In this document: positions 147 through 63,034 of the stretch, piece after piece
How positions within the stretch are numbered: position 1 is the stretch's first letter
How the letters are laid out: every line of letters begins with the position of its first letter
IMG/VR virus record: IMGVR_UViG_3300046804_003503
Span: 97,059-161,058 of that record
From: a virus
Strand: one strand, 5' to 3'
DNA length: 64,000 bases
Notes under the pieces: generated by a model
What the model saw: the letters and a program-made list of their open reading frames with translations, nothing else
Told to the model about the DNA's origin: nothing
Databases searched by the model: none
Position numbers and translations under genes: made by a program

Positions 147-181
147 CATTTTCCTTGTCAATACTAAGAGATCAACACTTT

Positions 182-210: not shown

Positions 211-228
211 CTAACTGCCTTTTCTGAT
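191..228. terminator. long inverted repeat after the ferritin-like gene
   Basis: TCAGAAGGCA(A)TTAG pairs with CTAACTGCCTTTTCTGA around a short loop. It lies directly after the stop of the 238-759 gene, as a terminator would, but has no clear U-tract. It overlaps the -35 of the dnaE promoter, so it may do both jobs or act as an operator. Confidence 0.5.
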
Positions 229-237
229 GAGAAAAAA

Positions 238-759: not shown

Positions 760-768
760 CTTTGTCTC

Positions 769-1191
769 CTATTTTTTTATTGGACCGCCGGTTATCCATG
801 CATCACAAGTTCTTTCTCCAGCGCACTTGAAATCAAATAATTCACAATAACCTAAATTAGCTTTGTCTATTATGTCAATTGCTATTTGATCTTCGCTTAT
901 TTCTGATGCTATGCCTTTTTCTATGCAATTCATCATTTTTTCTTTTTGTATGAATGCTGCACAATTTTTACATCTCATAGTTTTAGCTTCGTCTATGGAT
1001 GTTTTAAATAGATCTGCTTTACCTTGCCAAAAATCTTCATTTGGAAGATCTGGATTTGCTGGTCCATAGTTTGCTTTTTCTACACATATTTTTCTATTAG
1101 CTAAGTTAATAGTAATATCTTGAGTAGCTGGAGGACACTCTATTTTAGCTTGAACTGATTGTAATAATTCTTCTGCTCTAGATTTTTTCAT
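769..1191 (-). CDS. cysteine-rich hypothetical protein
   Basis: This 140-aa protein has no function I recognise. Its C-terminal half has a CKNC pair near residue 74, a single Cys near 89 and a cluster YCELFDFKCAGERTC followed by DAW. The spacing suggests a zinc or iron-sulphur site. It sits between a ferritin-like gene and a probable structural gene, so a metal link is tempting but unproven. Confidence 0.8.
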   Translation of the reverse strand: MKKSRAEELLQSVQAKIECPPATQDITINLANRKICVEKANYGPANPDLPNEDFWQGKADLFKTSIDEAKTMRCKNCAAFIQKEKMMNCIEKGIASEISEDQIAIDIIDKANLGYCELFDFKCAGERTCDAWITGGPIKK

Positions 1192-1203
1192 TTGTGTTTC
1201 TCC

Positions 1204-2175: not shown

Positions 2176-3031
2176 GATTTTCTCCTAATATTGTTTTTTT
2201 AGCTTCAAGAAAGATGTTATCTAAACTTTCTCTTGGTATTTTATTTCGAAAGTAATTGTATATACTCAGAACCATTATGTCATTTGGATCTTTGGTAATT
2301 TCTAACCATCCTATGAAATAGTTCCATATTCTGTCTTCTAATATTAATCTATATTTTACACCATCGGGTCTTCCAAATCTATGATTCCACTTTAAGTATG
2401 GAAGACAAATATTTTTACCACCATTTCTTCTAAATTTTTCTGCTATATATCCTTCTTCTGCTCCAAATCCTTTAAAATTATTATTTATTCCTGTCCAAGC
2501 AGATTTTTCAAACGCCATTAATCCCATACCTTGCATTTGTATTTCAAAGGGTAGCCCTTTATCATATTCGTTTTTATTTGTTCCCCATATGCCAAACATA
2601 TCTCCACGCCACACTGGATCAAAATGCGTTGATATGTTTTTTAAATCATCATACCATAATGGACCCTGTATTAAATTTTTGCAATCTGGATTCTCTTGAA
2701 AATATTGTAATAATTTAGATATTCCATCTTTTTCTATTAAAACGTGACAATCTATTATTAAAATATACTTTCCTGTAGCGTATTCTACTATTTTGTACTT
2801 ATTAAATGAGCTATTTACACCATCATATGCTATGTATTTACCATGGACTTGATGCTCTATATATGATTTACAAGCTTTTCCATGTTCACTAGATGGATTT
2901 CCATCAAGTACAATAAACTCCACCTGTTCTGTATTGCATATTTCGTGGAACATCCTTAATGACTGTATGGAGAAAAATACTCCATTATAGTCATCATATG
3001 TTGCCATACCGATAGTTAATAATTTACTCAT
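2159..3031 (-). CDS. family 2 glycosyltransferase (GT-A fold)
   Basis: This 290-aa protein opens with LLTIGMATYDDYNGVFFSIQ and has VEFIVLDGNPSS near residue 40 and YILIIDCHV near 93, the usual GT2 order of nucleotide-sugar loop and DxD-like site (here D-C-H). A late GFGAEEGYIAEKFRR segment matches the acceptor-side ED/EE motif. It probably transfers a sugar to DNA, to a virion protein or to host surface glycan. There is no signal peptide or membrane span. Confidence 0.8.
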   Translation of the reverse strand: MSKLLTIGMATYDDYNGVFFSIQSLRMFHEICNTEQVEFIVLDGNPSSEHGKACKSYIEHQVHGKYIAYDGVNSSFNKYKIVEYATGKYILIIDCHVLIEKDGISKLLQYFQENPDCKNLIQGPLWYDDLKNISTHFDPVWRGDMFGIWGTNKNEYDKGLPFEIQMQGMGLMAFEKSAWTGINNNFKGFGAEEGYIAEKFRRNGGKNICLPYLKWNHRFGRPDGVKYRLILEDRIWNYFIGWLEITKDPNDIMVLSIYNYFRNKIPRESLDNIFLEAKKTILGENHATSK

Positions 3032-3035
3032 ATTT

Positions 3036-4055
3036 TCACCCCGGAGCAGAATAAAATCCTATGTCAAATCCCTGTCTGGTACAATCCTCTATTGTCTTTT
3101 GTATACCGTGTGTTTTTATACTGTTCTCTACATATATACACATGTTCTGATCTGTTCCCGGCCAGTTGTGCTTACAATAGTGGCATAATTTGGTACATTT
3201 CCAATTATCCCTATTTTGTGAAATTGGCTGGGGATTATTATTACTTTTTATGTCTAAAAACCTATTTTTGAGCATTTTAATGAACTTTTGCTGGTCAAGT
3301 TCGTCAAAGCACATAGAAAATGGACCACCATCTTTTATAAAGAAAATACTCATTATCGACTGTTTATATTGCGGGAATAATTTAGATATTGCATAGTTAT
3401 ATAGCAATAATTGTGGATCTGCACATAATTTGTCGTATGTCTTTTCTTCACCCGTTGCCCAATCTAGCCTTTTGCCAGTTTTCCAATCAATTACCTCTAT
3501 AATTCCTTCTTCTGTCTCTGTTACGAGATCTATGGTCCCTTTTATCGCAAGTTGCCCTTTGATCTTTTGACCATTTACTTCATATTCATAAAAAGCCCAA
3601 TCTTCGTCTATTGGTATGTCAAAATGTGGTTCTGCTGCCACTATTTTTCTATATCTTGGATCAAATTGTCCATCATTATAATTCAAAGTGTCCCATACTA
3701 ACTTAGAGCATGAATCTTTGTCACCTTTTGTAAATGAATGCTTGGATGATCCAGTATAAAATTCAAAACTCTTAGAAAGTAAACTGTCTACTAATGAGCT
3801 AGTAAATAATTCATTTTTTTTGATTGATATTGTTTGGAGGGCATCATCTTCTATGACTAGATTTAATTTACGTGGATTATCTTGATGAAATTTCTTTAAA
3901 CTGGCCAATACTTCCATTACTTTATGTACTATTGTTCCTAATTCAGCTTTTTTGCCACTATCTGGCTGATGGCCCAAAACATAAGTCATAAAATATTGCA
4001 TTTGACAATAAGCATAATTATTATAACTAGAAGATCTTATATATGTAACTAACAT
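3036..4055 (-). CDS. PD-(D/E)XK nuclease, RecB/Cas4-like
   Basis: The core G-T-I-D ... EVIDWKTGK near residues 170-190 is the D-x(n)-(D/E)-x-K nuclease motif of the RecB/AddB/Cas4 group, with an upstream GTIVHKVME helix. One Cys near the N-terminus (YAYCQMQYF) and three near the C-terminus (KLCHYCKHNW...C) could hold a 4Fe-4S cluster, as in AddB and Cas4. I chose the ATG at 4055 because GGAGG lies 5 nt before it and it overlaps the previous stop (TAATG); a TTG 12 nt upstream also exists. The likely role is DNA end-processing in recombination or host DNA breakdown. Confidence 0.82.
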   Translation of the reverse strand: MLVTYIRSSSYNNYAYCQMQYFMTYVLGHQPDSGKKAELGTIVHKVMEVLASLKKFHQDNPRKLNLVIEDDALQTISIKKNELFTSSLVDSLLSKSFEFYTGSSKHSFTKGDKDSCSKLVWDTLNYNDGQFDPRYRKIVAAEPHFDIPIDEDWAFYEYEVNGQKIKGQLAIKGTIDLVTETEEGIIEVIDWKTGKRLDWATGEEKTYDKLCADPQLLLYNYAISKLFPQYKQSIMSIFFIKDGGPFSMCFDELDQQKFIKMLKNRFLDIKSNNNPQPISQNRDNWKCTKLCHYCKHNWPGTDQNMCIYVENSIKTHGIQKTIEDCTRQGFDIGFYSAPG

Positions 4056-4798
4056 TAATTCCTCCAAAATGGATTGTTTCTTAGTTCATCGCACAAGACC
4101 TCTAGCGTCATGTTATGATTATCAATAACCATATCGAAATTTGACCAAGAAAATTGTTCACTATCTAAAGCACATTCTGATTCCGAATCACTATTAAAAA
4201 TGTCTCTTGTTAATCTTATTACCATCCCCCCATTGTCTTTTATCGCCTTAACCTCATTGGGAAATCTAACATCTGGTACTATAGCTATCTCAGATTGCTC
4301 AAACACAATTTTTTTTAGTGTATATTCAGACCATGCATTATTCTTTATTTTTCTTACAACTTTAGTGCCAAAATGTTCTAAAAATTCTCTGTATGTCATT
4401 CTGTCTTCTTTATTTGAGTCATTATCTGGCATATTCTCCCATCTTAGATCAGTTTTTTCATTTTTTTGATCATTTGTGCCATATATATTTTCTGGATTTA
4501 ATCCAAATAAATTGATAGACATTTCTTTTAGCGGATCAGCAAAATGGTATACTTTTATGTAGGGCCATAGTTCTCGTTCTGCATAATCTATGAAAATGTT
4601 ATCTTTTCTAGTGACATCAAATATGCCATACCCACTTGTACCAGTAATATCACTAGTATTGATTAACAATTCTCCATTATCATTTATAGAGAAATCATTT
4701 ATCATCGATTTAGACTTTAAAATGTCTCCGTTGATATAGTTTGCTACAGTATTCTTTCCAGATTGTTTTCTACCAGAAATTCCAATAATTTTAACCAT
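4055..4798 (-). CDS. deoxynucleoside monophosphate kinase
   Basis: This 247-aa protein starts MVKIIGISGRKQSGKNTVAN, a P-loop. It also has FADPLKEM, TYREFLEHFGTKVVRK and IVPDVRFPNEVKAI, all typical of phage dNMP kinases of the T4 gp1 type. It would phosphorylate dNMPs and complements dUTPase, dCMP deaminase, ThyX and NrdAB elsewhere in the window. Its start overlaps the primase stop by 8 nt. Confidence 0.88.
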   Translation of the reverse strand: MVKIIGISGRKQSGKNTVANYINGDILKSKSMINDFSINDNGELLINTSDITGTSGYGIFDVTRKDNIFIDYAERELWPYIKVYHFADPLKEMSINLFGLNPENIYGTNDQKNEKTDLRWENMPDNDSNKEDRMTYREFLEHFGTKVVRKIKNNAWSEYTLKKIVFEQSEIAIVPDVRFPNEVKAIKDNGGMVIRLTRDIFNSDSESECALDSEQFSWSNFDMVIDNHNMTLEVLCDELRNNPFWRN

Positions 4799-5816
4799 TG
4801 TTGCCTCTCAATTGCGGAACCAAGATTTTGTGTATTTGATCCACCGTCATTTCTCCTACGTCTTTTGCTGGTATTCTAGGGAAAAACAATTTGTACATTC
4901 TATTTAATTGTCTTTGCAATTGCACTTTTGCTTCTCTACCAGCTTGATCATTATCCATTAATATCACTACTTTGGTAAGTGGCATAGTAGATAATTTGTA
5001 TTCTTGTTCTTTTGATAATGTTCTTCCAAAGATGCTCATCACATTTTTGATTCCAGCTTCATGAAGTCTCCATATGTCACTTTGGCCTTCGACTAATATC
5101 AACGAAGAAGATGTATACACATAATCTATTGCTCTATGATAATTGTAGAAAATGTACCTTTTGTCGAAACCTTTAGGGGTGATCAAGAATTTAGGACTTT
5201 TGTATTCTTTAATTGCTCTAGCTATAGATCCTATGATTTGTGTTCCATCTTCATTATGTATTGGTATAATTGATCTGTCATATAGCTTGGAAGATTTATC
5301 TGTGCAATCTCCAACTTCAAAAAATGATAATGTTTCTTTTTTAAATCCGCGATTGAGAAAGTAACAAGATGGAATAGAATTACATTCTAGTGTTATCGCT
5401 GAATATTGTGTTTCAATTTTTATATTACTATTAATAGTATTTACTATACGCGAGAAATCACATTCTTCAGTCTTAACAGATTTAGAAATAACATTTGGAC
5501 TTTTTGACACTCCAAGAAAAGAACAAGACCATTTAAGTGCCTCTGAAAAACCAACGTCTTCTCCGTGCTGTTTAGACAAAAACCCCCTTATGACTCCAAA
5601 TATATCATTTTTATAGTGATACTGACAATCTCTAGTCCAACATTTCCATATACCTTTATCTTTAGAAAATGAGAATGCCCGTGGGTTATCACTAGCCTCA
5701 TGTGCTGGACAATTACAATATATGTTATCTCCTAATACCTCATATTGCATACCCAAACTAGAGAATACTTCTTCTGCTCTTAAATTAAGACTATTCTTTA
5801 TCTTCTGTAAGTCCAT
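4791..5816 (-). CDS. DnaG-type primase (zinc finger plus TOPRIM)
   Basis: The 341-aa protein has a CHC2-like zinc site at residues 33-62 (YCNCPAH ... WKCWTRDC). This is followed by a TOPRIM domain with LILVEGQSDIWRLHEAGI near 240 and KVVILMDNDQAG near 280. It is shorter than bacterial DnaG and lacks an obvious helicase-binding C-terminal domain. The next gene upstream is the DnaB helicase, overlapping by 26 nt, so the two probably form the primosome. Confidence 0.88.
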   Translation of the reverse strand: MDLQKIKNSLNLRAEEVFSSLGMQYEVLGDNIYCNCPAHEASDNPRAFSFSKDKGIWKCWTRDCQYHYKNDIFGVIRGFLSKQHGEDVGFSEALKWSCSFLGVSKSPNVISKSVKTEECDFSRIVNTINSNIKIETQYSAITLECNSIPSCYFLNRGFKKETLSFFEVGDCTDKSSKLYDRSIIPIHNEDGTQIIGSIARAIKEYKSPKFLITPKGFDKRYIFYNYHRAIDYVYTSSSLILVEGQSDIWRLHEAGIKNVMSIFGRTLSKEQEYKLSTMPLTKVVILMDNDQAGREAKVQLQRQLNRMYKLFFPRIPAKDVGEMTVDQIHKILVPQLRGNNG

Positions 5817-7254
5817 TTTTTAGTTTGTCCAATGCTTCTTGGTTTACCATGCCAGTATCTCCAACCGGCTGATTTTTGAACTCATTGCGTGTTTTTAATT
5901 CTCTCAACTTGGCATGAGATCCTTGCATTACCATATTGATATAGTCGCCGTCATCTAATCCAGCACCGTGTCGTGAGACTATTGGAACAAGTTTTCTATT
6001 ACCAGCATTTGGTCCATCTTCTGCTAGTTCTTCTGGTGATTTTGCCTTGAATATAGTAAAAGATGTACATAACCATATTAACCTATCAGATCCAGAAACA
6101 GCGTCAGTACTTTCTTTAGTTATACCATCACGGTTCAATTGTACAAATGATAAACATGGTATATCCAATTTTACACATAGATTATGCAAAGCGGTTATCT
6201 GAAAGCCTAAAGCTTGATATTCTTGAATATTATTTGTGATAGAATTAGATGACATTAATTTAAGATAATCATATATAATAAGACAATTATTTGTTTTGCC
6301 ATTTTCATCCATCTTTACTTCTTGCATAATCCACCTTTTGATTAAATTCAATATTTGTTCAAAAGGTTTTCCAGCAACACTAACGTAGCTATATGGTATT
6401 GATTCTATTTTGTCAATTGCTTCTTTGACTTTGATTCTTTTTTCTTCATCTTCAGTAAACTTTCCGGTAGCTATTTCGTTTATTGGAATGCCACTAATGT
6501 TAGCTAATAGTCTATTTAAGTGATCTTCTTTGCTCATTTCTGTATCTAACATCAATACAGGTATTCTTTTAGAAGATACATTCAATGCAACATTATCAGC
6601 AAATACGCTTTTACCAACTTTAGGACGAGCAGATATTAAGTCTACACATTTTCTGCGAAGACCGCCACCTATTGCTTCATCATATTTATTGAATCCCGTT
6701 GGTATGCCTATAATATCACATTTATTTTCTTCTAAAAAATCTAGATATTGCTGTATGTCTTTTCCTATTTTTTCTGGTAAATCTCCGCTATCATCTTCAC
6801 GCAGAAAATCTGTTACTGGACTTTCTAAAATTTGTATAATTTCATTGATAGACTCAGATCCAGTAATGTCATCTATATCTTTATGTATTTTTGCTGTTAA
6901 ATGTTTTATTTTTCTGGCGAACTCAAATTTTTTAAGTTGCAATCCAAAGCTAAATACATTATCTTTATTAACCGGAAAATCAGATAAAGATTTGATATAT
7001 TTTAATTCCTGATCAGTATTAATACTATCAGACAAATTAAGTTGTTCGGCAGCTGATAAAATAGACGGTATATCTACTTTTTGATCATTAGTAATAACTT
7101 TTTCTATGCACTTGTAAAGAATTTGGTTATTTACGTGACCAAAAGAGTCTTGACTAATAATATCAGATATATTTACATAAGCATCTATACCATGCTGAAA
7201 TAATCCAGCGAGTACAGCACGTTCTGAACCTATATCTGTTAATTTAGTATCCAT
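5791..7254 (-). CDS. dnaB: replicative DNA helicase DnaB
   Basis: I chose the ATG at 7254: it follows the previous stop (7256-7258) and has GGAAG 7 nt upstream. Earlier in-frame starts would overlap the neighbour by 80 nt. The 487-aa protein has the DnaB N-terminal domain (SERAVLAGLFQHG), then IGIPTGFNKYDEAIGGG, Walker A ARPKVGKS near residue 205 and Walker B CLIIYDYLKLM near 325. It is a hexameric RecA-fold helicase. The gene lies just upstream of the primase, as in many phage replisomes. Confidence 0.93.
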   Translation of the reverse strand: MDTKLTDIGSERAVLAGLFQHGIDAYVNISDIISQDSFGHVNNQILYKCIEKVITNDQKVDIPSILSAAEQLNLSDSINTDQELKYIKSLSDFPVNKDNVFSFGLQLKKFEFARKIKHLTAKIHKDIDDITGSESINEIIQILESPVTDFLREDDSGDLPEKIGKDIQQYLDFLEENKCDIIGIPTGFNKYDEAIGGGLRRKCVDLISARPKVGKSVFADNVALNVSSKRIPVLMLDTEMSKEDHLNRLLANISGIPINEIATGKFTEDEEKRIKVKEAIDKIESIPYSYVSVAGKPFEQILNLIKRWIMQEVKMDENGKTNNCLIIYDYLKLMSSNSITNNIQEYQALGFQITALHNLCVKLDIPCLSFVQLNRDGITKESTDAVSGSDRLIWLCTSFTIFKAKSPEELAEDGPNAGNRKLVPIVSRHGAGLDDGDYINMVMQGSHAKLRELKTRNEFKNQPVGDTGMVNQEALDKLKNGLTEDKE

Positions 7255-7255
7255 A

Positions 7256-7675
7256 TTATCTTCCAGTACACCTGTTGCATCTGTAATAATCACCATGTAC
7301 ATATCTTGGATCTTCTTTAAATGTTTTTCCGCATACATGGCATTCTACTTCAACCTTTTTGTGCGGTTGACGCTTACGCGGAGTGCGTTCAAACTGAGGA
7401 GTTTCTATATCGCGAAATTCTCCTGTATCTTGCCACTCATTCTTTCTAGCTCTCACGGGTTCTTTTCTCCTGACATTAGAAGTATCTTCCTGCCTACGTA
7501 TAGTAAAATCTTCATTTACGCTGGCAGTTGGCGTTGAAGACTTGATTGTTTTTATACTCTCTTGTTTTATTTCTGTTGGTACTGGTGCTACTGTTGGAGT
7601 ATTCCCAATTAATGCTTTTAATAAAGCCTGTTTTTGCTCATCGTTGAGCATATTTATGAAATCGTTCATGCTCAT
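7256..7675 (-). CDS. hypothetical protein with C-terminal zinc ribbon
   Basis: This 139-aa protein begins with a helix (MSMNDFINMLNDEQKQALLKALIG), has a long Thr/Pro/Arg-rich linker and ends with CHVCGKTFKEDPRY...YRCNRC, a four-cysteine ribbon. Its position directly before dnaB suggests a replication accessory role such as helicase loading or DNA binding, but I do not recognise the family. Confidence 0.8.
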   Translation of the reverse strand: MSMNDFINMLNDEQKQALLKALIGNTPTVAPVPTEIKQESIKTIKSSTPTASVNEDFTIRRQEDTSNVRRKEPVRARKNEWQDTGEFRDIETPQFERTPRKRQPHKKVEVECHVCGKTFKEDPRYVHGDYYRCNRCTGR

Positions 7676-8151
7676 GATCTTTTACCTCTCTCAAGAAGGA
7701 TGTCTGCTTTTCTCTTCAATTCAAATACTTTGCCATCTAATGATTGCAATCTAGCTTCAGCTATTTCTCTCATATTTTCTAGTGAAGCGGCGTATGAGTT
7801 ATTTTGTGCTAGTATATATTTTTTTGACTCATGCTTAGTATATTGACCAAAATCATTATTATGTTTAACTATTAACTTTTCTATTTGATCATGACACCAA
7901 GTTAATGCAACTTTATTTTTATTTATTTCATCTTGAATATAGGTAGCATATCCATATAATAGATATGCCGCATCAAATGCTTCTTGTTGTGTTGTTTTTT
8001 TAAGCTGGTCTAATGACAAATCTGCCACCATCAGATATTCTTCTCTAAATGATGAGAATTTAGTATTACTACTATTTATATAGTCATTGATTAGTGCTAT
8101 ATGTTCTGCTAATTTGTCAGATGCTTTTAATTCTTTTTCGCCACTCATCAT
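7672..8151 (-). CDS. hypothetical helical protein
   Basis: This 159-aa protein is mostly charged helix with coiled-coil character (MREIAEARLQSLDGKVFELKRKADI near the end). It is encoded between the recombinase/nuclease pair and dnaB, overlapping both neighbours. It is possibly a replication or recombination accessory factor; the function is unknown. Confidence 0.8.
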   Translation of the reverse strand: MMSGEKELKASDKLAEHIALINDYINSSNTKFSSFREEYLMVADLSLDQLKKTTQQEAFDAAYLLYGYATYIQDEINKNKVALTWCHDQIEKLIVKHNNDFGQYTKHESKKYILAQNNSYAASLENMREIAEARLQSLDGKVFELKRKADILLERGKRS

Positions 8152-8539
8152 CGCTTTCTGAATATTTTAAGGTTATTAATTCAATATTATTCAATTCGCA
8201 CCAAGATATTTTATCTTCATCTCGCACTTGGCTTTTTATGAAATCTGCTTTGCTTTTGTGAAAAAATGGGTTGTACTCATAATGTTGTTGACCATGAACT
8301 TCAAAGGCTCTTTGTAGAGTTGGTATATAAAAGTCTAAATATAAAACTGATTTTCTATGTAAAGCTGTACTGCCGGGAAGTTTAACCTCTTCTAATATTC
8401 TATAGCTATTGTAGATTTCTTTTAATAAGTTTCTTGCTCGCAAATGGTATCTAGATCTTTTACGAGCGTCATCATTGAATATATCATATCCAGTTAAATT
8501 CCAAGTATATTCTTTGCCATTGATTCCTTTGACTTTCAA
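8117..8539 (-). CDS. VSR/DUF559-like restriction-fold nuclease
   Basis: This 140-aa protein has LPGSTALHRKSVLYLDFYIP followed by AFEVHGQQHY, the D-x(n)-E-x-H/Q arrangement of very-short-patch-repair-like nucleases. A late helix ends in ELNNIELITLKYSESDDEW. It overlaps the RecA-like gene at ATGA, so a recombination or repair role beside the recombinase is likely. The catalytic assignment is from motif reading only. Confidence 0.7.
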   Translation of the reverse strand: MKVKGINGKEYTWNLTGYDIFNDDARKRSRYHLRARNLLKEIYNSYRILEEVKLPGSTALHRKSVLYLDFYIPTLQRAFEVHGQQHYEYNPFFHKSKADFIKSQVRDEDKISWCELNNIELITLKYSESDDEWRKRIKSI

Positions 8540-9642
8540 TGTAGTTCCTTTATCTTGTCATATATAAATTCTGACATCGATGGATTGTTATTCAAAAATT
8601 CCGATACATTATTCACACCTTGAAATTTAAAAAATCTTTCAACTTCGTCTGAAGTGTTCCCAATACCGTTGTCTTCTAGTAATTTTACTATAATTGGATT
8701 AGCTTGATCATCAACGGCGCATTGTATGGTATACCACGCTCCAGCCGCTTTGATAAGTCTAAATTCGCAAGCAATTTGTACAATTTCTTGTACTTCATCA
8801 ACTCCAGTTCCATATTTTATCCAACTTTCTGCCGTGCTGTTTGGTCTACCGCCAGCGTTAGAAGTTTTTATCACCCAATTTGCTATTTGGCCAACGTGTG
8901 GACCAGTATCCTTTGGAACTTGCCACTTACCACGATGAGTAATGACCATATTAGTACCGGCCTGATATTGCAACATATTTCCACAATCTGCCATCTTTTG
9001 TGGGGCATATGGCGATCCACCAGTATTAGCAATATTATGAGTGATACAAATAAGAATTGTCTTATTTTTCATCAAAGTACCACTGATTCGCTTGAAAAAC
9101 ATTGATAGCAATCTTGGAAGTGCATTTCTTACGCCAGTTCTTACTTCGCCTTCAAGTTCACACGCTGGAACCATGTTAGATAGTGAATCAGCAATGATTA
9201 AACATCCGGGATCATTATTGATATAATACTCAATAATGTTAAGAAAATCTTCTGCTGATAATACTCTTTCGTCAGTTGACTCTATTATTAAGATATTGTC
9301 TGGCTGAAGCCCCTTAATTCCATCAAAATTTTGTTTTGATAGTCTACCCTCAGTATTCACATATATAATGCGTTTTCCCTTTTGTTGGCATTTAGATGCA
9401 AAATGTAAAGCTGTTGTAGTTTTGCCACTTTTTGGATCTCCCGTCATCACCACGACAGAACCTTCTCTTATTCCACCGCCAAGTGCTATATCTAATGCTG
9501 GAGAAAGACCTATAACATTTAGACTATTTATACTTTCAAGAACTTCTGTTCCGCTTCTGACAACATCTCCATATTTACTGACAATAGAATTGCTTATAGC
9601 GTCTTCAGAGAATTTTACATTGTTCTTTTTAACTTTGCTCAT
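8536..9642 (-). CDS. RecA/UvsX-type recombinase
   Basis: This 368-aa protein has LSPALDIALGGGIREGSVVV, Walker A GDPKSGKTTTA near residue 67, IIYVNTEGRL, Walker B CLIIADSLSNMVP near 148 and a Gln-containing loop near KMADCGNMLQYQAG. This is the RecA/RadA core without the RecA C-terminal domain, as in phage UvsX. It should load on single-stranded DNA for recombination-dependent replication with SSB and the nearby nucleases. Confidence 0.9.
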   Translation of the reverse strand: MSKVKKNNVKFSEDAISNSIVSKYGDVVRSGTEVLESINSLNVIGLSPALDIALGGGIREGSVVVMTGDPKSGKTTTALHFASKCQQKGKRIIYVNTEGRLSKQNFDGIKGLQPDNILIIESTDERVLSAEDFLNIIEYYINNDPGCLIIADSLSNMVPACELEGEVRTGVRNALPRLLSMFFKRISGTLMKNKTILICITHNIANTGGSPYAPQKMADCGNMLQYQAGTNMVITHRGKWQVPKDTGPHVGQIANWVIKTSNAGGRPNSTAESWIKYGTGVDEVQEIVQIACEFRLIKAAGAWYTIQCAVDDQANPIIVKLLEDNGIGNTSDEVERFFKFQGVNNVSEFLNNNPSMSEFIYDKIKELH

Positions 9643-10154
9643 AGGTTCCTCAACTGGTTCATGGTGTTCTTTTTGTTATTATAGCCTGCTGACGCTCTAG
9701 TTTCAAGTGCCGGTTTTTCAATTGATACATCCATATTGATTTCAATTTTGTGTTTCTGATCTTCAATCTTTTGGTGATACTTTGCTATGATTTTTTCTGC
9801 CTCTGGATTTATTTTATATCCTCTGCCATTTTGCACTCCAATAACTAATAATTTATCAAAATCTTTAGACTGTATAGCTTGTATAATGGCTTCTTCGCTA
9901 TACTTCTTTTTTAATTGAAGTGCTGCTCCATGTTGCTTCTTCCATATCCAGTGTAGAGGATCGCCCTTTGTCCAAAATTTGTAAGATGGCTTACCTAAAT
10001 TCAATTTTTCAGATCTCCTCAAAACGATATATTCAGCTACATAAGCTTCAAATGTACAATATTCGCCAGTATGAATATGTTTATATTTATGAGTTTCTGA
10101 CCATTCTTTTTGGTAGTTTTGGCTAAATAACTCTGGTTTATTTTTCTGTGGCAT
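9639..10154 (-). CDS. hypothetical protein
   Basis: This 171-aa basic protein is rich in aromatic residues in its first half (KFWTKGDPLHWIWKKQ) and Lys/Glu-rich after residue 110. I do not recognise it. Overlaps on both sides place it in the replication operon. Confidence 0.78.
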   Translation of the reverse strand: MPQKNKPELFSQNYQKEWSETHKYKHIHTGEYCTFEAYVAEYIVLRRSEKLNLGKPSYKFWTKGDPLHWIWKKQHGAALQLKKKYSEEAIIQAIQSKDFDKLLVIGVQNGRGYKINPEAEKIIAKYHQKIEDQKHKIEINMDVSIEKPALETRASAGYNNKKNTMNQLRNL

Positions 10155-10566
10155 AATTGTATATTATGGCTTCTTCAAAACATTGTTCAATATTATCTTC
10201 TTCTTCTAAGTGCTGTATCAATTCTGGTATAATCCATATTGTTTTTTTGACTTTATTTCCATACACTTTGCCAACTGTGTATGTATGTTTTTCATCTTTA
10301 CCAAATGTGGCCAACATAGATCTTATCAAATAAACCGCATCTGTGCCAGAGGTATCAATTTCTATAGAACTTGATCTATATTGTAAACCTATTTTATTAA
10401 TACAAAGTTTGTGTAATTTACAATAATTTTTTAGATCCATCCATTCATTATAGTTTCTGAGATAAATTTCTTTACCATCATTTAAAATAGCACGAATCCA
10501 AGTATTATACTTGTCTTTTTTATATTCCTCAAGCCAATCAGTATATGAAGTAATAAAATTATTCAT
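10138..10566 (-). CDS. hypothetical protein
   Basis: This 142-aa acidic-to-neutral protein has no recognisable motif. It overlaps the next gene at ATGA (10563-10566) and the 9639-10154 gene by 17 nt, so it is translationally coupled. Confidence 0.78.
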   Translation of the reverse strand: MNNFITSYTDWLEEYKKDKYNTWIRAILNDGKEIYLRNYNEWMDLKNYCKLHKLCINKIGLQYRSSSIEIDTSGTDAVYLIRSMLATFGKDEKHTYTVGKVYGNKVKKTIWIIPELIQHLEEEDNIEQCFEEAIIYNYATEK

Positions 10567-10850
10567 CGTATTTTGGTAACACAGCTAGGGTTTTTTCTGT
10601 TTGGTATAATTTTTTTTTGATCTATCATAGTAGATGCATTTTCTGTCATTATGGTTGCACCGCCCTGACGTACAAATTGTTGATCTACTATAGTTTTTGG
10701 TGCTTCTATCTTGCATTTCTTGATATATTTTTCAATAGCACCAACAGCTCTATCTAAATCTTGTGCAATCTGTTCAATACTATTACCAGATTTATATTTT
10801 TCTTCTACGTAAAAAGATTCAGCTTTACCGAGAGGTCCAGTTTTAGCCAT
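10563..10850 (-). CDS. small helix-turn-helix-like protein
   Basis: This 95-aa protein starts MAKTGPLGKAESFYVEEKY. The segment SIEQIAQDLDRAVGAIEKYIKK reads as a helix-turn-helix. The tail has a conserved-looking QGGATIMTENAS and a NPSCVTKIR end. A regulatory or DNA-binding role is possible; there is no firm family assignment. Confidence 0.75.
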   Translation of the reverse strand: MAKTGPLGKAESFYVEEKYKSGNSIEQIAQDLDRAVGAIEKYIKKCKIEAPKTIVDQQFVRQGGATIMTENASTMIDQKKIIPNRKNPSCVTKIR

Positions 10851-11187
10851 TGATAAAACTCCTTTGTGCCCTAGTCATATATAGAGAATTTTTACTTTTT
10901 AAATAAGATACATACATATCATGTGTTTGTTTGCTAACTTGTTTCAAACTGAGCGATAGTGTGGATTCTCTATGACTATCAATTCCATAGGGATCATACG
11001 GTTGGTTATTAAATACTAAAATTGCATATTTATTTTGACTAGGTATAGAATTTGTATTCCCAATTGTCTTGGCAAATATCTTTTCAGACTCATCGCTGAT
11101 TGGTCTTCCCAGTTTATTTAGATTGATTTCAAATACATCTGTATGGTTAATTTCAAATGCTTGATTTTCAGAATTGATAAATTTCAT
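10843..11187 (-). CDS. hypothetical protein
   Basis: This 114-aa protein is unrecognised. It overlaps neighbours by 8 and 4 nt and belongs to the same tightly coupled operon. Confidence 0.75.
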   Translation of the reverse strand: MKFINSENQAFEINHTDVFEINLNKLGRPISDESEKIFAKTIGNTNSIPSQNKYAILVFNNQPYDPYGIDSHRESTLSLSLKQVSKQTHDMYVSYLKSKNSLYMTRAQRSFING

Positions 11188-11534
11188 TTTTCACCTGTCA
11201 TAATATATTTTGTTTTTTGTGCTTCTGTCATTTTGTTGATTTCTTTTTTAGATGCTGATCCAAAAGAAGAAAAGTACGAAGTTTCCTCCGTACTCTTCTT
11301 GGATTGTGATTCTATGTCGGATTTTTCGTAACTGCCCTTTTGTGACCAATTCTTTTCTGCCAGACTGCCTATCGTTTTACAGTCCTTCATAAAAGATGCT
11401 ATGCCACCATATATTACTCTTCGTAGACCACTTTTTCCACATGCTGGACAAGTGGTTAATGCATCATCCTTAATGGACTGATAAACATCTTTCATTTCAT
11501 TATGGCATTCGTCACAAATATAATCATATAACAT
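11184..11534 (-). CDS. FmdB-like zinc-ribbon protein
   Basis: This 116-aa protein opens LYDYICDECHNEMKD and has CPACGKSGLRRVI at residues 33-45, the FmdB-type C-x2-C...C-x2-C ribbon. The rest is Ser/Lys-rich. FmdB proteins are putative regulators; the phage role is unknown. Confidence 0.75.
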   Translation of the reverse strand: MLYDYICDECHNEMKDVYQSIKDDALTTCPACGKSGLRRVIYGGIASFMKDCKTIGSLAEKNWSQKGSYEKSDIESQSKKSTEETSYFSSFGSASKKEINKMTEAQKTKYIMTGEK

Positions 11535-11541
11535 ATAATCC

Positions 11542-12222
11542 TCAAGATTCTAAAGCGTGTAGAACAGCTCCTAAAATTCCATTTCTTTGTATATCTTCAT
11601 ATCCTAATCGACACATTCCTATACCATGAATATCTGTCAATTTTTCTATACATTCTAATAATCCATTCCCGCGATACAAATCTGTTTGTTTGGTATCACC
11701 ATTTATCATTACTTTAGAATTTTCACCCATGCGTGTAATAAACATTTTAATCTGCTCTAAGGTACAGTTCTGAGCTTCATCTAATATCATATAAGAATTG
11801 TGAAATGTTGATCCTCTCATAGTCTCAAGTGGCTCAAATTTAATTCTGCGAGTATTGTAATATAAGCCAAACTTATCTCTACCCAAAAAGTATTTTAGAT
11901 TTTCTTCCATAGGTTGTAGGTATGGCTTAATTTTTTCTCCCAATTCTCCCGGTAATGATCCTATATCTTTTCCTGTGCATACTAACGGTCTTGTTACTAT
12001 TATATTTTCAATTTTATCCTTTAATAAATGTTCAGCAGCAACTCCTGCGGCAATAAAAGATTTACCAGTTCCAGATGGTCCGGTACAAAATATTATATCA
12101 TTCTCAATGATTGATCTAATATAATCTTTTTGATTTTCTGTTTTTGCTACTAGTACATTTTGTTTTGGTTCTTGTTTAGATTTTTTGTTTTTTTTCGAAT
12201 TGTTATTTGCCGCTGCTGCCAA
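11542..12222 (-). CDS. phoH: PhoH-like ATPase
   Basis: This 226-aa protein has Walker A FCTGPSGTGKSFIAAG near residue 48, VTRPLVCTGKDIGSLPG, and Walker B MILDEAQNCTLEQIKMF near 140, the PhoH pattern. The first in-frame start is a TTG at 12222 inside the dUTPase 3' end, with GGGGAG about 9 nt before it; no ATG precedes the conserved core. PhoH proteins are RNA-related ATPases/helicases common in phages; the exact role is unsettled. Confidence 0.88.
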   Translation of the reverse strand: MAAAANNNSKKNKKSKQEPKQNVLVAKTENQKDYIRSIIENDIIFCTGPSGTGKSFIAAGVAAEHLLKDKIENIIVTRPLVCTGKDIGSLPGELGEKIKPYLQPMEENLKYFLGRDKFGLYYNTRRIKFEPLETMRGSTFHNSYMILDEAQNCTLEQIKMFITRMGENSKVMINGDTKQTDLYRGNGLLECIEKLTDIHGIGMCRLGYEDIQRNGILGAVLHALES

Positions 12223-37135: not shown

Positions 37136-37143
37136 AATATTAT

Positions 37144-37499
37144 TGGAGGCGAGGGGAGTCGAACCCCTGTCCTAACATATATCAAACTATATCTTCTACA
37201 AGTTTATTTTGTTCATAAGTTAAACAGAAGTATAGAACAAACAAGATTCTTTCTGTCTTACCAGCTTCTCTTAACCTACAACCCGCTGGGTATTGTAAGT
37301 GCAGAGGGATTTAACGACAGACTTTTGATCGCTACCCTCATTCGCAATCGCAGTCTGTTACTGCCCTTTTTTGTCAGGCAGCAAGTGCTAACTGAGTTTC
37401 GCCAGTTAAAGCGTTTTAATCGACTTTTAAAGTGGCCTGTCGATCAACCACTACTTGCTAATATAATCTTCTTTATGTAGTCGAAACCTTTACGCCCCC
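37144..37499 (-). ncRNA. ssrA: tmRNA (transfer-messenger RNA)
   Basis: The minus strand carries both ends of a tRNA-like fold. The 5' GGGGGCG pairs with 3' CGCCTCC (one G-U) and leaves discriminator A at 37144. A T-arm AGGGG-TTCGACT-CCCCT precedes it, and the 5' D-like part has GGTTTCGACT. CCA is not encoded. An internal reading frame at 37374-37415 encodes (N)ALTGETQLALAA and stops at TGA; the -LALAA end is the usual proteolysis tag. The RNA is 356 nt, like bacterial tmRNA. It may rescue stalled ribosomes and tag products during infection. Confidence 0.93.
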
Positions 37500-58783: not shown

Positions 58784-58812
58784 ATTGTACCATATCGACA
58801 CACTCGACGCAA
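58784..58812 (-). promoter_or_regulatory. sigma70-type promoter at the edge of GC-core repeat A
   Basis: TTGCGT, 17-nt spacer with TCGATA and TGG end, TACAAT on the minus strand. The -35 lies in the terminal half-unit of repeat A. The leader to the 58639 start would be about 140 nt. Confidence 0.65.
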
Positions 58813-58942
58813 GTACTTGAGGAATAAGGACTTACGTTCACTCACCATTAGACTTGACGTAAGTGGTTGAAAATAAAAGACTTATGAATAGGGCGGCGGG
58901 CCGCGTTCGCCCTAAACCCTTGTGTTGCAAGGACTTAGAACG
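58806..58942 (-). repeat. GC-core repeat element A (with extra half-unit)
   Basis: On the minus strand: a half-site CTAAGTCCTTGC...ACAAGG...TTTAGG, a core with ACGCGGCCCGCCGCC, a half-site ATAAGTC...CAACCACTTACGTC, and another half-site CGTAAGTCCTTATT...ACTTGCGTC. Copies B (60838) and C (62944) share this order. The half-sites form GTAAGT/ACTTAC hairpins. Confidence 0.85.
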
Positions 58943-58957
58943 AATCACGGTTCCACG

Positions 58958-59218
58958 CTACAACGCTTCCCAAGCATTCTTTACTTCATCCATAGCCCGC
59001 TGCATGATTTCATCTACTGGCATATCTTTATGTACCTTTTCCCATTCATCTATTACAGGGGGTTCATAATCTGTTACGCGAAAGCCAGCATTGTTTTCCA
59101 CAAAATCCATATCCAGTTCACCTATAAGGTCATGAAGTTCATCTGAGTCTTTAGCCTCTACAATAAACTCAGCCCTATGGGCGGTGACATAGTTCATATA
59201 TACTCTATACTTTGGCAT
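58958..59218 (-). CDS. hypothetical protein
   Basis: This 86-aa protein (YRVYMNYVTAHRAEFIVEAK ... FRVTDYEPPVIDEW) looks like a small ferredoxin-like alpha/beta fold. It is unrecognised. GC-core repeat A begins 16 nt after its stop. Confidence 0.75.
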   Translation of the reverse strand: MPKYRVYMNYVTAHRAEFIVEAKDSDELHDLIGELDMDFVENNAGFRVTDYEPPVIDEWEKVHKDMPVDEIMQRAMDEVKNAWEAL

Positions 59219-59246
59219 ATTATTCTCCTTTGTTACTAGCGAGAGA

Positions 59247-59274
59247 GGGCTGGCGAGTTTTACCCCGCCAACCC
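59247..59274 (-). terminator. GC-rich hairpin after the DUF932 gene
   Basis: On the minus strand GGGTTGGCG pairs with CGCCAGCCC around a 10-nt loop, 14 nt after the DUF932 stop. No U-run follows, so it may be an attenuating or stabilising hairpin. Confidence 0.6.
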
Positions 59275-59288
59275 TTCCCTCCCACTAA

Positions 59289-60491
59289 CTAAGCGGTCAG
59301 AGCGAAAACCTTCTCGTAATCCTTGTCGGTGAAGGTATCAGCACGACGCAGGATCGTAGCCCAGCGGTCTGAGGACGTTTCCATCAGACTACCAGCGATC
59401 TCGTCAAACCTTACCCAAGTCTTATTATCAAACACCTGTCCCGCACGGGTCAGACCGTTGATAATACCGAACAGGTTACGCTCTCCAGATTCCAGAGTAA
59501 TATACTGGTCAAGGAACTCCGTAGCCTCACGCTTGGTCAGTTTGTAATCTGACGCAACCGCAGCCACGATACCCTTGACGCTAGCCTTGCCAGTTTCCAT
59601 AGCACGGGTAGCGAGGAACTGCTTGATACCCGGAGCGAGGAGCGGAACCTGTTGCTGGATATTCTGAGCGATTTCCAACTTCAGTTTGTCAAGGTCGATA
59701 TTACCGCGATGGACACGGCGAATCTTCTCACCGGCAGTCTGACCCCAAATGCAACCGTTCATACAAATCGAACGGAACAGGCTAGGCGTCTGACTAATGC
59801 GGCGAGTACCGATCTCGCAGTTACCAACGCTAATCATTCCACCGTAATCACTATCATCAGCACCGTAGTCCATGATGGTATCGGGGATAAGGACGTTACC
59901 ATAGATGGTATCCTCATCGCCACGCCAGTGACTGAAACGACCACCGGGAATAAACTCCGCGAGGGTTTCCAGATACCAGCGATTGTCAACCGGAGCATAC
60001 TGCTCAGTCACGAACGCACGGCACGTTCCATCCGTATAGGTACGCAGGCGAAACGTCTTGTCAGCGTCGATACGCCGCAGAGCATTGTTGCCAACGTATG
60101 CCATCGTATCAGCATCCGCAACGTCGAAACCTTCGATGTTACGCATTTCACGAAGGAACGAGGACGAGGTAACACCCACGCGAACGCTAAACTGTTCAAT
60201 GGCGTGGTCCGTAGGGCGAAACTCTCGTCCATCGTTCAACTTCAGAAAAAATCCCTTATCATTACCAACACAGGTAATGTTCTTACGCTCAGTCAGAATA
60301 TCCTCGCGGTTCTCAACCGCAACGTGAGCATCCTGCATGACTTGCTCGTAGGTTTTGGTCTTGCTCCACCAATCCTTGTGAACGTGCGTACCTTCAGCGA
60401 AACCAGTACCAGTAGCACCGACGAGAGTGCGAACAAAAGAACCGGCATTGGGGTTGCTGTCAATCGTCAACTTGTTATAGGCAGTCATCAT
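59289..60491 (-). CDS. DUF932 / phage-plasmid-like protein
   Basis: This 400-aa protein has VTSSSFLREMRN, RTYTDGTCRAFVTEQYAPVDN, ISVGNCEIGTRRISQTPSLFRSICMNGCIWG and VKGIVAAVASDYKLTKREAT, the blocks of the DUF932 (TIGR03299-like) family found in phages and plasmids. Its function is unknown, with a replication or nucleotide link suspected. ATGs at 60491 and 60488 are both possible; the second has better ribosome spacing. Codons are GC-rich, and the promoter at 60526-60553 makes it probably abundant. Confidence 0.87.
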   Translation of the reverse strand: MMTAYNKLTIDSNPNAGSFVRTLVGATGTGFAEGTHVHKDWWSKTKTYEQVMQDAHVAVENREDILTERKNITCVGNDKGFFLKLNDGREFRPTDHAIEQFSVRVGVTSSSFLREMRNIEGFDVADADTMAYVGNNALRRIDADKTFRLRTYTDGTCRAFVTEQYAPVDNRWYLETLAEFIPGGRFSHWRGDEDTIYGNVLIPDTIMDYGADDSDYGGMISVGNCEIGTRRISQTPSLFRSICMNGCIWGQTAGEKIRRVHRGNIDLDKLKLEIAQNIQQQVPLLAPGIKQFLATRAMETGKASVKGIVAAVASDYKLTKREATEFLDQYITLESGERNLFGIINGLTRAGQVFDNKTWVRFDEIAGSLMETSSDRWATILRRADTFTDKDYEKVFALTA

Positions 60492-60525
60492 CAATCTCCT
60501 AAGTAGTGGGTTATCAACTTTTGGT

Positions 60526-60553
60526 ATTATACAGGGTCACTCGTCGCTGTCAA
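60526..60553 (-). promoter_or_regulatory. sigma70-type promoter for DUF932 gene
   Basis: TTGACA, 16-nt spacer ending CTG, TATAAT on the minus strand. Confidence 0.85.
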
Positions 60554-60764
60554 GGGGCGAAAACATTTTGTCGAAACAGTCGCCGCACGTTCCGCTCAAA
60601 AGCAGTTCACGCTCGTTAGCAGAAAGATATGGCAAAGCATTTTGGATGGGCAGCGAACCGCTCAACCAATCATACATATCACTCTCATCAAACGTCAATA
60701 CAAACTGACGCCCACAGTGCTTGCAAAAAGCATCGCAAATAGTATCACGAACCGCAGCAACCAT
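60537..60764 (-). CDS. small zinc-finger-like protein
   Basis: The ATG at 60764 has AAGGAG 6 nt upstream. The 75-aa protein has FCKHCGRQF at residues 13-21 and CGDCFDKMF near 61, two C-x-x-C pairs. Its 3' end overlaps the next promoter. Confidence 0.72.
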   Translation of the reverse strand: MVAAVRDTICDAFCKHCGRQFVLTFDESDMYDWLSGSLPIQNALPYLSANERELLLSGTCGDCFDKMFSPLDSDE

Positions 60765-60783
60765 AACTGTCTCCTTTTCAACC

Positions 60784-60811
60784 ATCATACCATGAGTATC
60801 GGCAGAGTCAA
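60784..60811 (-). promoter_or_regulatory. sigma70-type promoter
   Basis: TTGACT, 16-nt spacer with CCGATA and TGG end, TATGAT on the minus strand, before the zinc-finger gene. Confidence 0.85.
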
Positions 60812-60837
60812 GGGGTCAGCATTAGTTTTTTCTTCTA

Positions 60838-60927
60838 GACGTAAGTTGTTGGTAGATAAGGACTTACGATCAGCGGGGCGGGCCGCGTCGGTCCTAAACA
60901 TTTGGTGGCACAGGACTTACGGCAAAC
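60838..60927 (-). repeat. GC-core repeat element B
   Basis: Same order as A: CCGTAAGTCCTGTGCCACCA ... TTTAGGACC, core ACGCGGCCCGCCCCGC, then CGTAAGTCCTTATC...CAACAACTTACGTC on the minus strand. It overlaps the 3' end of the 60894-61076 gene, whose stop TAG lies in the first half-site. Confidence 0.85.
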
Positions 60928-61076
60928 GGAGAAACAGACCTAGTTATTTCCCACGACTCCATATAGGTTGTATTCTCATCTGGAAACTGGGGAAGTAAAG
61001 CCTCGCATTTCTGTTTAGCGTCCTCTGCTGATTTACAGTTACGCATAACAACTTCTATAGTAACGTAGTGGTACAT
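60894..61076 (-). CDS. 60-aa hypothetical protein
   Basis: MYHYVTIEVVMRNCKSAEDA ... the last dozen codons (SPFAVSPVPPNV) are encoded by GC-core repeat B. The N-terminal part looks like a small alpha/beta protein. Confidence 0.68.
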   Translation of the reverse strand: MYHYVTIEVVMRNCKSAEDAKQKCEALLPQFPDENTTYMESWEITRSVSPFAVSPVPPNV

Positions 61077-61288
61077 TATTTCACCGGTGAGTAATAGATA
61101 TGGAAAACGTCATTCCACGTTGGCATAGTATACAAGGGATAACCCTCGTTTACACATTCTCCCGTCTTTTGGTTGTAAACGTCATAGAAAGATACATCAC
61201 GAATATCCATAGCATCAGCAGAATCATAACACGCATAAATATCATAGTGTACATCATCCATAACATAGGTGGCTACCAGTTCGTTCAT
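61076..61288 (-). CDS. hypothetical protein, paralogue of 43411-43683
   Basis: This 70-aa protein has YDIYACYDSADAMDIRDVSF, YDVYNQKTGECVNEGYPLY and MPTWNDVFHIYY, matching the 43411-43683 product. It overlaps both neighbours. Confidence 0.75.
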   Translation of the reverse strand: MNELVATYVMDDVHYDIYACYDSADAMDIRDVSFYDVYNQKTGECVNEGYPLYTMPTWNDVFHIYYSPVK

Positions 61289-61464
61289 ACGTTAACCTCA
61301 TACTCTCTTACATCTAGAATGTTATCTTCGTCAATCTGACCAAAGAACTCGGGGTCTTCGTAAATATAACGATTGATTGTCTCTGCTATCTCTGCCTTAG
61401 TCTTGACATCGGGCATGTTATGCAGACATAGATGCATCATGATTTTGACTTCTTTTACTTGCAT
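61285..61464 (-). CDS. 59-aa hypothetical protein
   Basis: MQVKEVKIMMHLCLHNMPDV ... DEDNILDVREYEVNV. ATGA couples it to the paralogue gene. Confidence 0.68.
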   Translation of the reverse strand: MQVKEVKIMMHLCLHNMPDVKTKAEIAETINRYIYEDPEFFGQIDEDNILDVREYEVNV

Positions 61465-61612
61465 GTTTACCTCTAAATGTTTGGGGGAATATTGGTTACT
61501 TTATTAGTCAAACTATTCCGATTTACTTATCTTGATACAACATACTCCAAACGAAAATCATAATCATGAGTTCTATCAAATGATCTCCCTAAACTGTTAC
61601 AAAAAAGAACAG

Positions 61613-61688
61613 TAGGGCGTGTACGAGTCGAACGTACCTATGAACACCTTATAAGAGTGTCGGATGCAACCGGCTTACCTTACGCCCC
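61613..61688 (-). tRNA. tRNA-Ile, anticodon TAT
   Basis: This 76-nt RNA has a GGGGCGT/ACGCCCT acceptor (one G-U), anticodon arm ACACT-CTTATAA-GGTGT and T-arm GTACG-TTCGACT-CGTAC. It reads AUA, a codon rare in many hosts. CCA is not encoded. Confidence 0.9.
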
Positions 61689-61709
61689 ATGATACGGGTG
61701 ACGCGGGCT

Positions 61710-61738
61710 ATTATACCACACGCCACCCGTACACTCAA
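61710..61738 (-). promoter_or_regulatory. sigma70-type promoter for tRNA-Ile
   Basis: TTGAGT, 17-nt spacer ending TGG, TATAAT on the minus strand; about 22 nt from -10 to the tRNA 5' end. Confidence 0.82.
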
Positions 61739-61745
61739 GGGAGAA

Positions 61746-61958
61746 TCAACGATAGCACTTCGTTTCGATCATCTTGTCGCACAACAGTGTACGCACAGTC
61801 TGGTCCATAGAACGAACCACGGCATATCGGCCATTCGGACCAGTACCAACACGCTCAATACGACCAACGTGATACTTCAGCACGTTCTTATTACCGTGCA
61901 GCGGATACTTGCACTTGATATGGCGGTTCTTACGAAGGCTAGCAAAGTTATTCGACAT
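61746..61958 (-). CDS. small basic protein
   Basis: The ATG at 61958 has GGAG 7 nt upstream. The 70-aa protein is very basic (MSNNFASLRKNRHIKCKYPL ... RIERVGTGPNGRYAVVRSMD). It may bind nucleic acid. Confidence 0.72.
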   Translation of the reverse strand: MSNNFASLRKNRHIKCKYPLHGNKNVLKYHVGRIERVGTGPNGRYAVVRSMDQTVRTLLCDKMIETKCYR

Positions 61959-61960
61959 CT

Positions 61961-62104
61961 TCATTCTCCTTGAGTAAACATCTTCTCAACATCAGCGAGG
62001 GTATACACAACCCTCTTACCATTAGAATCAAACGTCACACCATCACGCGAGATACTAACCACCTTACCGTACTTAGTATCGTCATTCAAACCAAGAATCT
62101 TCAT
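61961..62104 (-). CDS. 47-aa hypothetical protein
   Basis: MKILGLNDDTKYGKVVSISR ... ends MFTQGE. It is a small beta-rich protein, first after the promoter at 62143-62171. Confidence 0.68.
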   Translation of the reverse strand: MKILGLNDDTKYGKVVSISRDGVTFDSNGKRVVYTLADVEKMFTQGE

Positions 62105-62130
62105 CTTATTTCCTCGTTATTATCGGAATG

Positions 62131-62490
62131 TCACCACCAACTATCATACACTACGGTCAGTCCGTTGTCAAGAGCCTCTCGGGCCTTCATAACAAACTCC
62201 AAGTCTTGTTGCCCGTAGACAGCATCGCTATTGCTACCAAAGAAAAAACCTACGGTGTCTGGCAGATTAGCATTAGTAACATCCTGCTCTAGACTATCCA
62301 GATCTTCCTTAGTAAGTTCAACTGGAATACAGTTAAACTCGTTGGGATTATCTTCGTGGGCATTAGGGCGACCCTTACTAACCCACAGATCCTCCATCCA
62401 ACCTTGAAGATTAGGATGCTTACGCCAGTAGGCGAGTTCTTCCTTCTCTCCATTGTTATCGACAGCATGTGCGAACTGATCCAAACCCAT
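62131..62490 (-). CDS. phage hypothetical protein (MGLDQFA type)
   Basis: This 119-aa protein starts MGLDQFAHAVDNNGEKEELA with WRKHPNLQGWMEDLWVSKG, then CIPVELTKEDLDSLEQDV and FFFGSNSD. The pattern recurs in many phage proteins without known function. Confidence 0.8.
   Translation of the reverse strand: MGLDQFAHAVDNNGEKEELAYWRKHPNLQGWMEDLWVSKGRPNAHEDNPNEFNCIPVELTKEDLDSLEQDVTNANLPDTVGFFFGSNSDAVYGQQDLEFVMKAREALDNGLTVVYDSWW
62143..62171 (-). promoter_or_regulatory. sigma70-type promoter
   Basis: TTGACA, 17-nt spacer, TATGAT on the minus strand, inside the 3' end of the 62131-62490 gene. Confidence 0.8.
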
Positions 62491-62552
62491 TGTAATCTCC
62501 TAGTTAGTGGGCTAGAATGGATACTGGCTACTACTACTTCACCAGTATCGAC

Positions 62553-62581
62553 ATTCTAGCAGACAATCTTTAGAAAATCAA
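62553..62581 (-). promoter_or_regulatory. sigma70-type promoter
   Basis: TTGATT, 17-nt spacer, TAGAAT on the minus strand, before the 62131-62490 gene. Confidence 0.75.
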
Positions 62582-62841
62582 GCGGTCGCCGTAGCAACCT
62601 CGGCCTCGGCCTTCGCAGCCTTGGGAGCCTTGGGAGCCTTGACCTTCGGCGGTTCCTTGACGCCAGCAACCCTAGCCCGCCAAACCTTGAAGCCCTGCTC
62701 CTTGAGCGAATCAACCTTCGCCGGATGCACGGCAGAAATCGTACCGATACCATCCACAGTCTCCAGCAGCGAAGCACGAACAGCGTTCGCGTCGATAGCC
62801 GAATCCGAAACCACATCAACCACAAACGTATACTTCTGCAT
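62578..62841 (-). CDS. small protein with Lys/Ala/Pro tail
   Basis: The ATG at 62841 has AAGGAG 7 nt upstream. The 87-aa protein has a small alpha/beta domain (MQKYTFVVDVVSDSAIDANA ... FKVWRARVAG) and then a histone-H1-like tail of KAPKAPKAAKAEAE type. It may bind DNA or RNA. It is driven by the promoter at 62889-62916. Confidence 0.75.
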   Translation of the reverse strand: MQKYTFVVDVVSDSAIDANAVRASLLETVDGIGTISAVHPAKVDSLKEQGFKVWRARVAGVKEPPKVKAPKAPKAAKAEAEVATATA

Positions 62842-62888
62842 AATCAAACTCCTTACAAGTGTTAGTGTTATCAACCATTACTTCAATC

Positions 62889-62916
62889 ATTCTACCATAG
62901 TATATCGTCCTGTCAA
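62889..62916 (-). promoter_or_regulatory. sigma70-type promoter
   Basis: TTGACA, 16-nt spacer with CGATA and TGG end, TAGAAT on the minus strand. Confidence 0.85.
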
Positions 62917-62943
62917 CCCCTGTTCCTTGAAAAAATATTTATT

Positions 62944-63034
62944 CGTCATAAGTCGTTGTGAGGTAAGGACTTACGGCAAACGCGGCCCGCCGCCTTGGTC
63001 CTAAATCCTTGTGGGATAAGGACTTAAGGCGAGC
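62944..63034 (-). repeat. GC-core repeat element C (core inverted)
   Basis: On the minus strand: CTTAAGTCCTTATCCCACAA...TTTAGGACC, core GGCGGCGGGCCGCG (the reverse complement of the A/B core), then CCGTAAGTCCTTACC...CAACGACTTATGACG. It begins just after the L7/L12-like gene stop. Confidence 0.85.

Follow-up and report, generated by a model that had tools for sequence, protein, structure and literature searches.

The repeat elements between the early operons of this phage are members of a large, hitherto undescribed family of ~95-bp DNA sites of uncultured T4-like phages. Our best reading, which we consider probable, is that each is an operator in double-stranded form, placed between neighbouring early operons, for a sequence-specific regulator of the early promoters. 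The findings on promoter spacing and site sequence are all accounted for by a trans-acting, sequence-specific protein that sits upstream of the promoter in a fixed orientation.

Elements in the window and the rest of the genome

The window, i.e. the whole 64,000-nucleotide stretch analyzed, comprises bases 97059-161058 of virus record G000 (total 161,058 bases). The half-site pattern yielded nine matches in the window, compared to 0.13 expected from shuffling. The sequence-only reading had placed three repeat copies at 58806-58942, 60838-60927 and 62944-63034, each with two half-sites. All three are present, and their half-sites, 25-bp imperfect palindromes flanking a GC-rich stretch, are spaced exactly 53 bp start to start in copies A, B and C. 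The following features were assigned:

58854..58943, minus strand: copy A, full element (model score 85 bits on the minus strand); half-sites 58860-58884 and 58913-58937, GC core 58885-58912; sense strand minus
58804..58840, minus strand: extra half-unit of copy A, palindrome 58810-58834
58784..58812, minus strand: predicted sigma70 promoter after copy A (score 9.2); predicted -35 TTGCGT (58807-58812), -10 TACAAT (58784-58789)
60836..60925, minus strand: copy B, full element (79 bits); half-sites 60842-60866 and 60895-60919, GC core 60867-60894
60784..60811, minus strand: predicted sigma70 promoter after copy B (score 13.3; -10 offset 130); predicted TTGACT (60806-60811), 16 bp with CCGATA, TATGAT (60784-60789)
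62943..63032, minus strand: copy C, full element (101 bits); half-sites 62949-62973 and 63002-63026, GC core 62974-63001
62917..62942, minus strand: UP-element-like A/T-rich tract from copy C to its -35
62889..62916, minus strand: predicted sigma70 promoter after copy C (score 14.8; -10 offset 132); predicted TTGACA (62911-62916), 16 bp, TAGAAT (62889-62894)

The extra half-unit of copy A, described earlier as overlapping a promoter -35, proved to be real. It is a third palindrome 50 bp before the first palindrome of copy A, and the predicted -35 on the minus strand falls in its outer arm. The predicted promoter of copy A is weaker, with a spacing of 148 that is off the main register. A similar extra half-unit was found in two relatives (L094, L123). 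All three copies follow gene ends as had been observed, and copy B even contains the stop of the upstream gene (60894). Likewise, copy C carries an inverted core when compared with A and B. The idea of a palindromic core did not hold for the family, which keeps only G+C content in this stretch, and core orientation varies even within G000.

The number of copies had been underestimated: bases 1-12,000 of G000 hold eight more, full or partial, which brings the genome to about 11, while the middle of the record holds none. All lie in the early region, whose GC content of 44-45%, compared to ~33% elsewhere, agrees with the earlier description of a GC-rich region in an AT-rich genome. On a circular or circularly permuted genome, the array may form a single block. 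G000 carries T4-like genes (ribonucleotide reductase, rIIA, UvsX and a DnaB-like helicase), yet its terminase is only ~25-28% identical to those of cultured phages, and its early proteins are nearly absent from them. The phage also encodes several tRNAs and a complete tmRNA (window 37141-37499, minus strand, 130 bits, predicted tag GETQLALAA).

To sample relatives by gene and not by element, 80 viral loci were fetched via GP88. Elements were present in 71 of these loci (679 copies in 1.28 Mb, a count that includes low-scoring diverged copies), with intact sites scoring 40-108 bits and shuffled sequences at most -23. A lack of further copies would, by the sequence-only reading, have counted against the element; there are hundreds. 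In each family copy, two imperfect palindromes with a 53-bp spacing flank a core in which G+C content, not sequence, is conserved. In the consensus of 240 non-redundant copies, the sense strand reads TTGACG TAA[A/G][T/C]CCTTG N5 TAAGGACTTA GGGCGA before the core and TTTGACG TAAGTCCTTA N5 CAACGACTTA CGTCAA after it, followed by an A/T tract. Elements follow the stop of one early operon and precede the promoter of the following one; the upstream stop and the element edge are a median of 14 bp apart. Among those with called neighbours, 333 of 358 sit between co-directional genes, and 619 of the 679 elements (91%) in this gene-chosen sample point in the same direction as GP88. Gene and promoter calls were made by our own scripts on contigs that are metagenomic and related.

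The exact half-site pattern occurs in at least 119 stretches of IMG/VR. It was also found in 69 stretches of bacterial genome contigs, few of which contain both halves; many of these matches may be due to chance, and many are single palindromes, probably unrelated. Copies were confined to one region of ~10-25 kb in 11 of 14 viral records searched whole, the remaining three giving one or two matches only at this stringency. No convincing match was obtained in the cultured phages and plasmids searched, and a literature search for the motif returned only unrelated papers. The density of 6-18 copies per 20-kb early region, as a rule each before a promoter, makes the earlier suggestion of a part of a replication origin unlikely.

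Helical register with predicted promoters

Downstream of the elements we found an UP-like A/T tract of the form AAAAATTTTTCTAAAGA, followed by a near-consensus sigma70 promoter. Promoters were predicted by the sigma70 consensus only. Their score reached a median of 13.8 downstream of elements, whereas upstream coding DNA gave 6.3 and the reverse strand 7.7. A CGATA motif was present in 195 of 237 downstream regions (50 of 237 controls), and 356 of 509 elements had a strong predicted promoter within 120 bp.

Measured from half 1 in the 509 non-redundant copies, the start of the -10 hexamer peaks at 120-121 (47 copies), 130-132 (136 copies) and 141-143 (27 copies), with troughs at 123-127 (3 copies) and 145-149 (1 copy), and the element-promoter distance clusters at ~120.5, 131 and 142 bp. 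When each downstream gene family was counted once, 88% were in register, compared to 48% if spacing were uniform. Orthologous sites across phages differ by whole helical turns, those at GP88 having spacings of 121, 131, 142 and ~151. This helical register is the main evidence for an action of the element, as double-stranded DNA, on the promoter. Transcription control by a DNA-binding protein, one of several roles considered by the sequence-only reading, gains support from this register and from changes in the inner arms (below).

Within the array span, 278 of 420 CCGATA-type promoters have an element and about one third have none detected, although some of the latter carry diverged elements below the cut-off. 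Outside the array, G000 contains CCGATA-type promoters without elements. A second upstream repeat, built around CTAATCCTTCGGATTTGG...GTAGTCAGCGAAAA, precedes several early promoters that have no element (L258 4141-4195 and 8145-8199, and similar places in other loci). Additionally, motifs of the sigma54 -24/-12 consensus (TGGCA[CT]N5TTGC) cluster beside elements in loci L215-L294 and in L197 at 8.0-11.8 kb, which is the G000 early region. There are 147 such motifs in the 80 loci and 2 in shuffles, and 10 of the 12 in G000 lie within the early region; a sigma54 gene was not detectable in the phage.

Inner arms across phage lineages

The excess of within-phage over between-phage identity reached ~0.2-0.3 in the inner arms alone, at positions 19-21 and 56-58, and was ≤0.12 elsewhere, a contrast that owes largely to a variant lineage. 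Positions 20 and 57 co-vary (z=64), mainly via two arm types; when these were analyzed separately, inner-arm co-variation was weak except for 20-57 in the variant set. The inner arms of this sister lineage read AAGASTTTR (L225, L226, L227, L228, L232, L238, L253 and others). In other sister phages, both palindromes are replaced by pairs of CTGCCAAAATGGCAG that flank a GC core at a spacing of 29 bp and precede the same promoter type as type I elements do, and two loci (L249, L218) retain one type I palindrome. The early genes are common to all site types, and early genes and promoters stay homologous. The backbone of the variant phage G015 is closer to that of G000 than the backbones of G017 and G018 are (median +34 points identity), but several of its early-region genes are not, as if the early region had been exchanged as a block.

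Relatives that share genes and promoters differ in site sequence, which favours a phage-encoded protein as the regulator, and we think this likely. The early-region proteins covered by a Pfam scan showed no clear DNA-binding domain, and no clear candidate emerged when family presence by site type and identity contrasts among G000, G015, G017 and G018 were considered as well. A 261-aa protein adjoining a sigma-like gene shows, by eye, a possible N-terminal helix-turn-helix. The terminase genes are close by, however, and it could itself be a small terminase.

A proposed early operator and alternative explanations

We propose that the key recognition sequence is the inner-arm pair, an inverted repeat with the consensus AAGGACTTA / TAAGTCCTT and 37 bp apart around the GC-rich core. 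Together with the more variable outer arms, this pair forms two 25-bp palindromes at a distance of five helical turns. The element would be bound by a sequence-specific protein, probably a dimer (or pair of dimers) encoded by the phage, that acts on the following sigma70 promoter. The centre of half-site 2 lies near -78 and that of half-site 1 near -131, and with the element abutting the UP-like tract, these positions would place the complex on a fixed helix face beside RNA polymerase, in possible contact with the alpha C-terminal domain. As for upstream regulators that act through this domain (class I activators, rrnB P1 type), the distance from site to promoter varies in steps of whole helical turns.

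Given that the promoters are near consensus as they stand and have UP tracts, we lean towards a shut-off, either of early operons at later stages of infection or of superinfecting genomes, to which we give an even chance; activation of early promoters is a somewhat fainter prospect. For down-regulation, p4 of phage phi29 is a precedent (PMC3100819). This phage-encoded dimer recognises imperfect inverted repeats, arranged in pairs by early and late promoters; acting through the RNA polymerase alpha subunit, it represses A2b and A2c and activates A3 (PMC3100819; PMC4495994). The early promoters of phi29 carry UP elements (PMC4495994). The elements described here are likewise pairs of imperfect inverted repeats near promoters. 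However, p4 has few sites in one promoter region and an AT-rich target, CTTTTT-15 bp-AAAATG, without GC core (PMC3100819; PMC4495994), from which our sites differ in sequence and by the presence of the core.

Another point of comparison is the stoperators of Cluster A mycobacteriophages, many repressor sites per genome that lie mostly in one orientation to transcription and whose consensus differs between phages along with the cognate repressor (PMC6550527, PMC9283540). Many sites, a dominant orientation and site differences between phages are seen here also, and stoperators offer a precedent for lineage-specific operator sets. The elements nevertheless lack two of their defining features: stoperators measure 13-14 bp, have no dyad symmetry and lie mostly off promoters throughout temperate genomes (PMC6550527, PMC9283540), whereas the elements are ~95 bp long, dyad-symmetric (two palindromes plus the inner-arm inverted repeat) and in phase with promoters, and lie only in the early region of T4-like phages. 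We can tentatively imagine an immunity-like system, in which a phage protein on arrays of exchangeable operators silences its own and superinfecting early operons, and operators diversify between lineages with genes and promoters unchanged. One repeated operator appears to control the entire early, probably host-takeover, region in widespread uncultured large phages, with a specificity exchangeable as a set. The timing or silencing of early genes in T4-like phages, a long-standing question, thereby becomes directly testable, as does an operator-based exclusion of relatives. Further, the signature of palindrome, GC core, palindrome, UP tract and sigma70 promoter offers a means of locating early regions in metagenomic phages.

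The same operator could instead serve an activator, a virion or host protein that boosts early promoters via the alpha C-terminal domain like Fis at rrnB P1, although we regard this as rather unlikely. Such activators typically show helical phasing, sites upstream and an UP-like tract. At rrnB P1 the UP tract abuts the -35 and helically phased protein sites lie further upstream, which the arrangement here resembles; Fis is a host protein with a degenerate site. The upstream region of E. coli rrnB P1 is activated by its UP element and Fis (PMC4495994). The element, in contrast to a Fis site, is specific and changes its palindrome sequence from one sister phage to another; a conserved host activator would leave this unexplained. 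Moreover, the promoters are near consensus already, and promoters with the same spacer motif occur elsewhere in G000 without elements.

We see little room for a terminator, roadblock or insulator at operon ends that, stoperator-like, would shield the next promoter from read-through. While the elements start at the stop codon of the upstream operon and one orientation dominates, a block to read-through needs no helical register with the next promoter. Intrinsic terminators combine a stem with a direct U-tract, and no U-tract directly follows the stems here. In a scan of 150 element regions, 16% scored as intrinsic terminators, compared to 7% in block shuffles. These were mostly separate upstream terminators, and strong canonical ones precede some elements.

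A recombination site that shuffles operon cassettes, tyrosine-recombinase or integron-like, is very improbable. Inverted arms with a short spacer, an early operon content that varies between phages and similar single palindromes by tRNA and guaA ends in some bacterial genomes would fit it, but promoter phasing would be left unexplained, and the arms that are most lineage-specific flank the GC core and not a crossover-length spacer.

An RNA hairpin or processing site in the transcript, a role also considered by the sequence-only reading, is the least credible: the half-sites are palindromic, some single copies can fold, and fold energies of both strands are below those of dinucleotide shuffles (z ~-2), but sense and antisense are equal in this, A-C mismatches on the sense strand outnumber G-U pairs (841 vs 615), and the Rfam models searched gave no match at the elements. 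Palindromes acting as hairpins would require kept stems, and these are not kept across the family (Watson-Crick pairing at 3-21, 58-72 and 59-71 occurs in no more than 30%, 29% and 19% of copies, respectively), so the hairpin reading is strongly disfavoured. Roles in RNA processing, termination or as an origin are not supported.

Further repeats were observed in other settings. In bacterial genomes (L130, L132, L142, L147, L149, L171, L177, L186), single TAAGTnnTTG...TAAGGACTTA palindromes adjoin the 3' ends of tRNA genes or of guaA and may be integrase attachment core sites. Contigs of WOR-3, TA06 and Stahlbacteria (L131, L148, L150, L159, L162) contain paired TATAAGGACTTA repeats 59 bp apart. 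The viral contig L084 carries many related palindrome pairs at a spacing of 42 bp, about one helical turn less, which are centred on ACCTCCGAGCT and not on a GC core.
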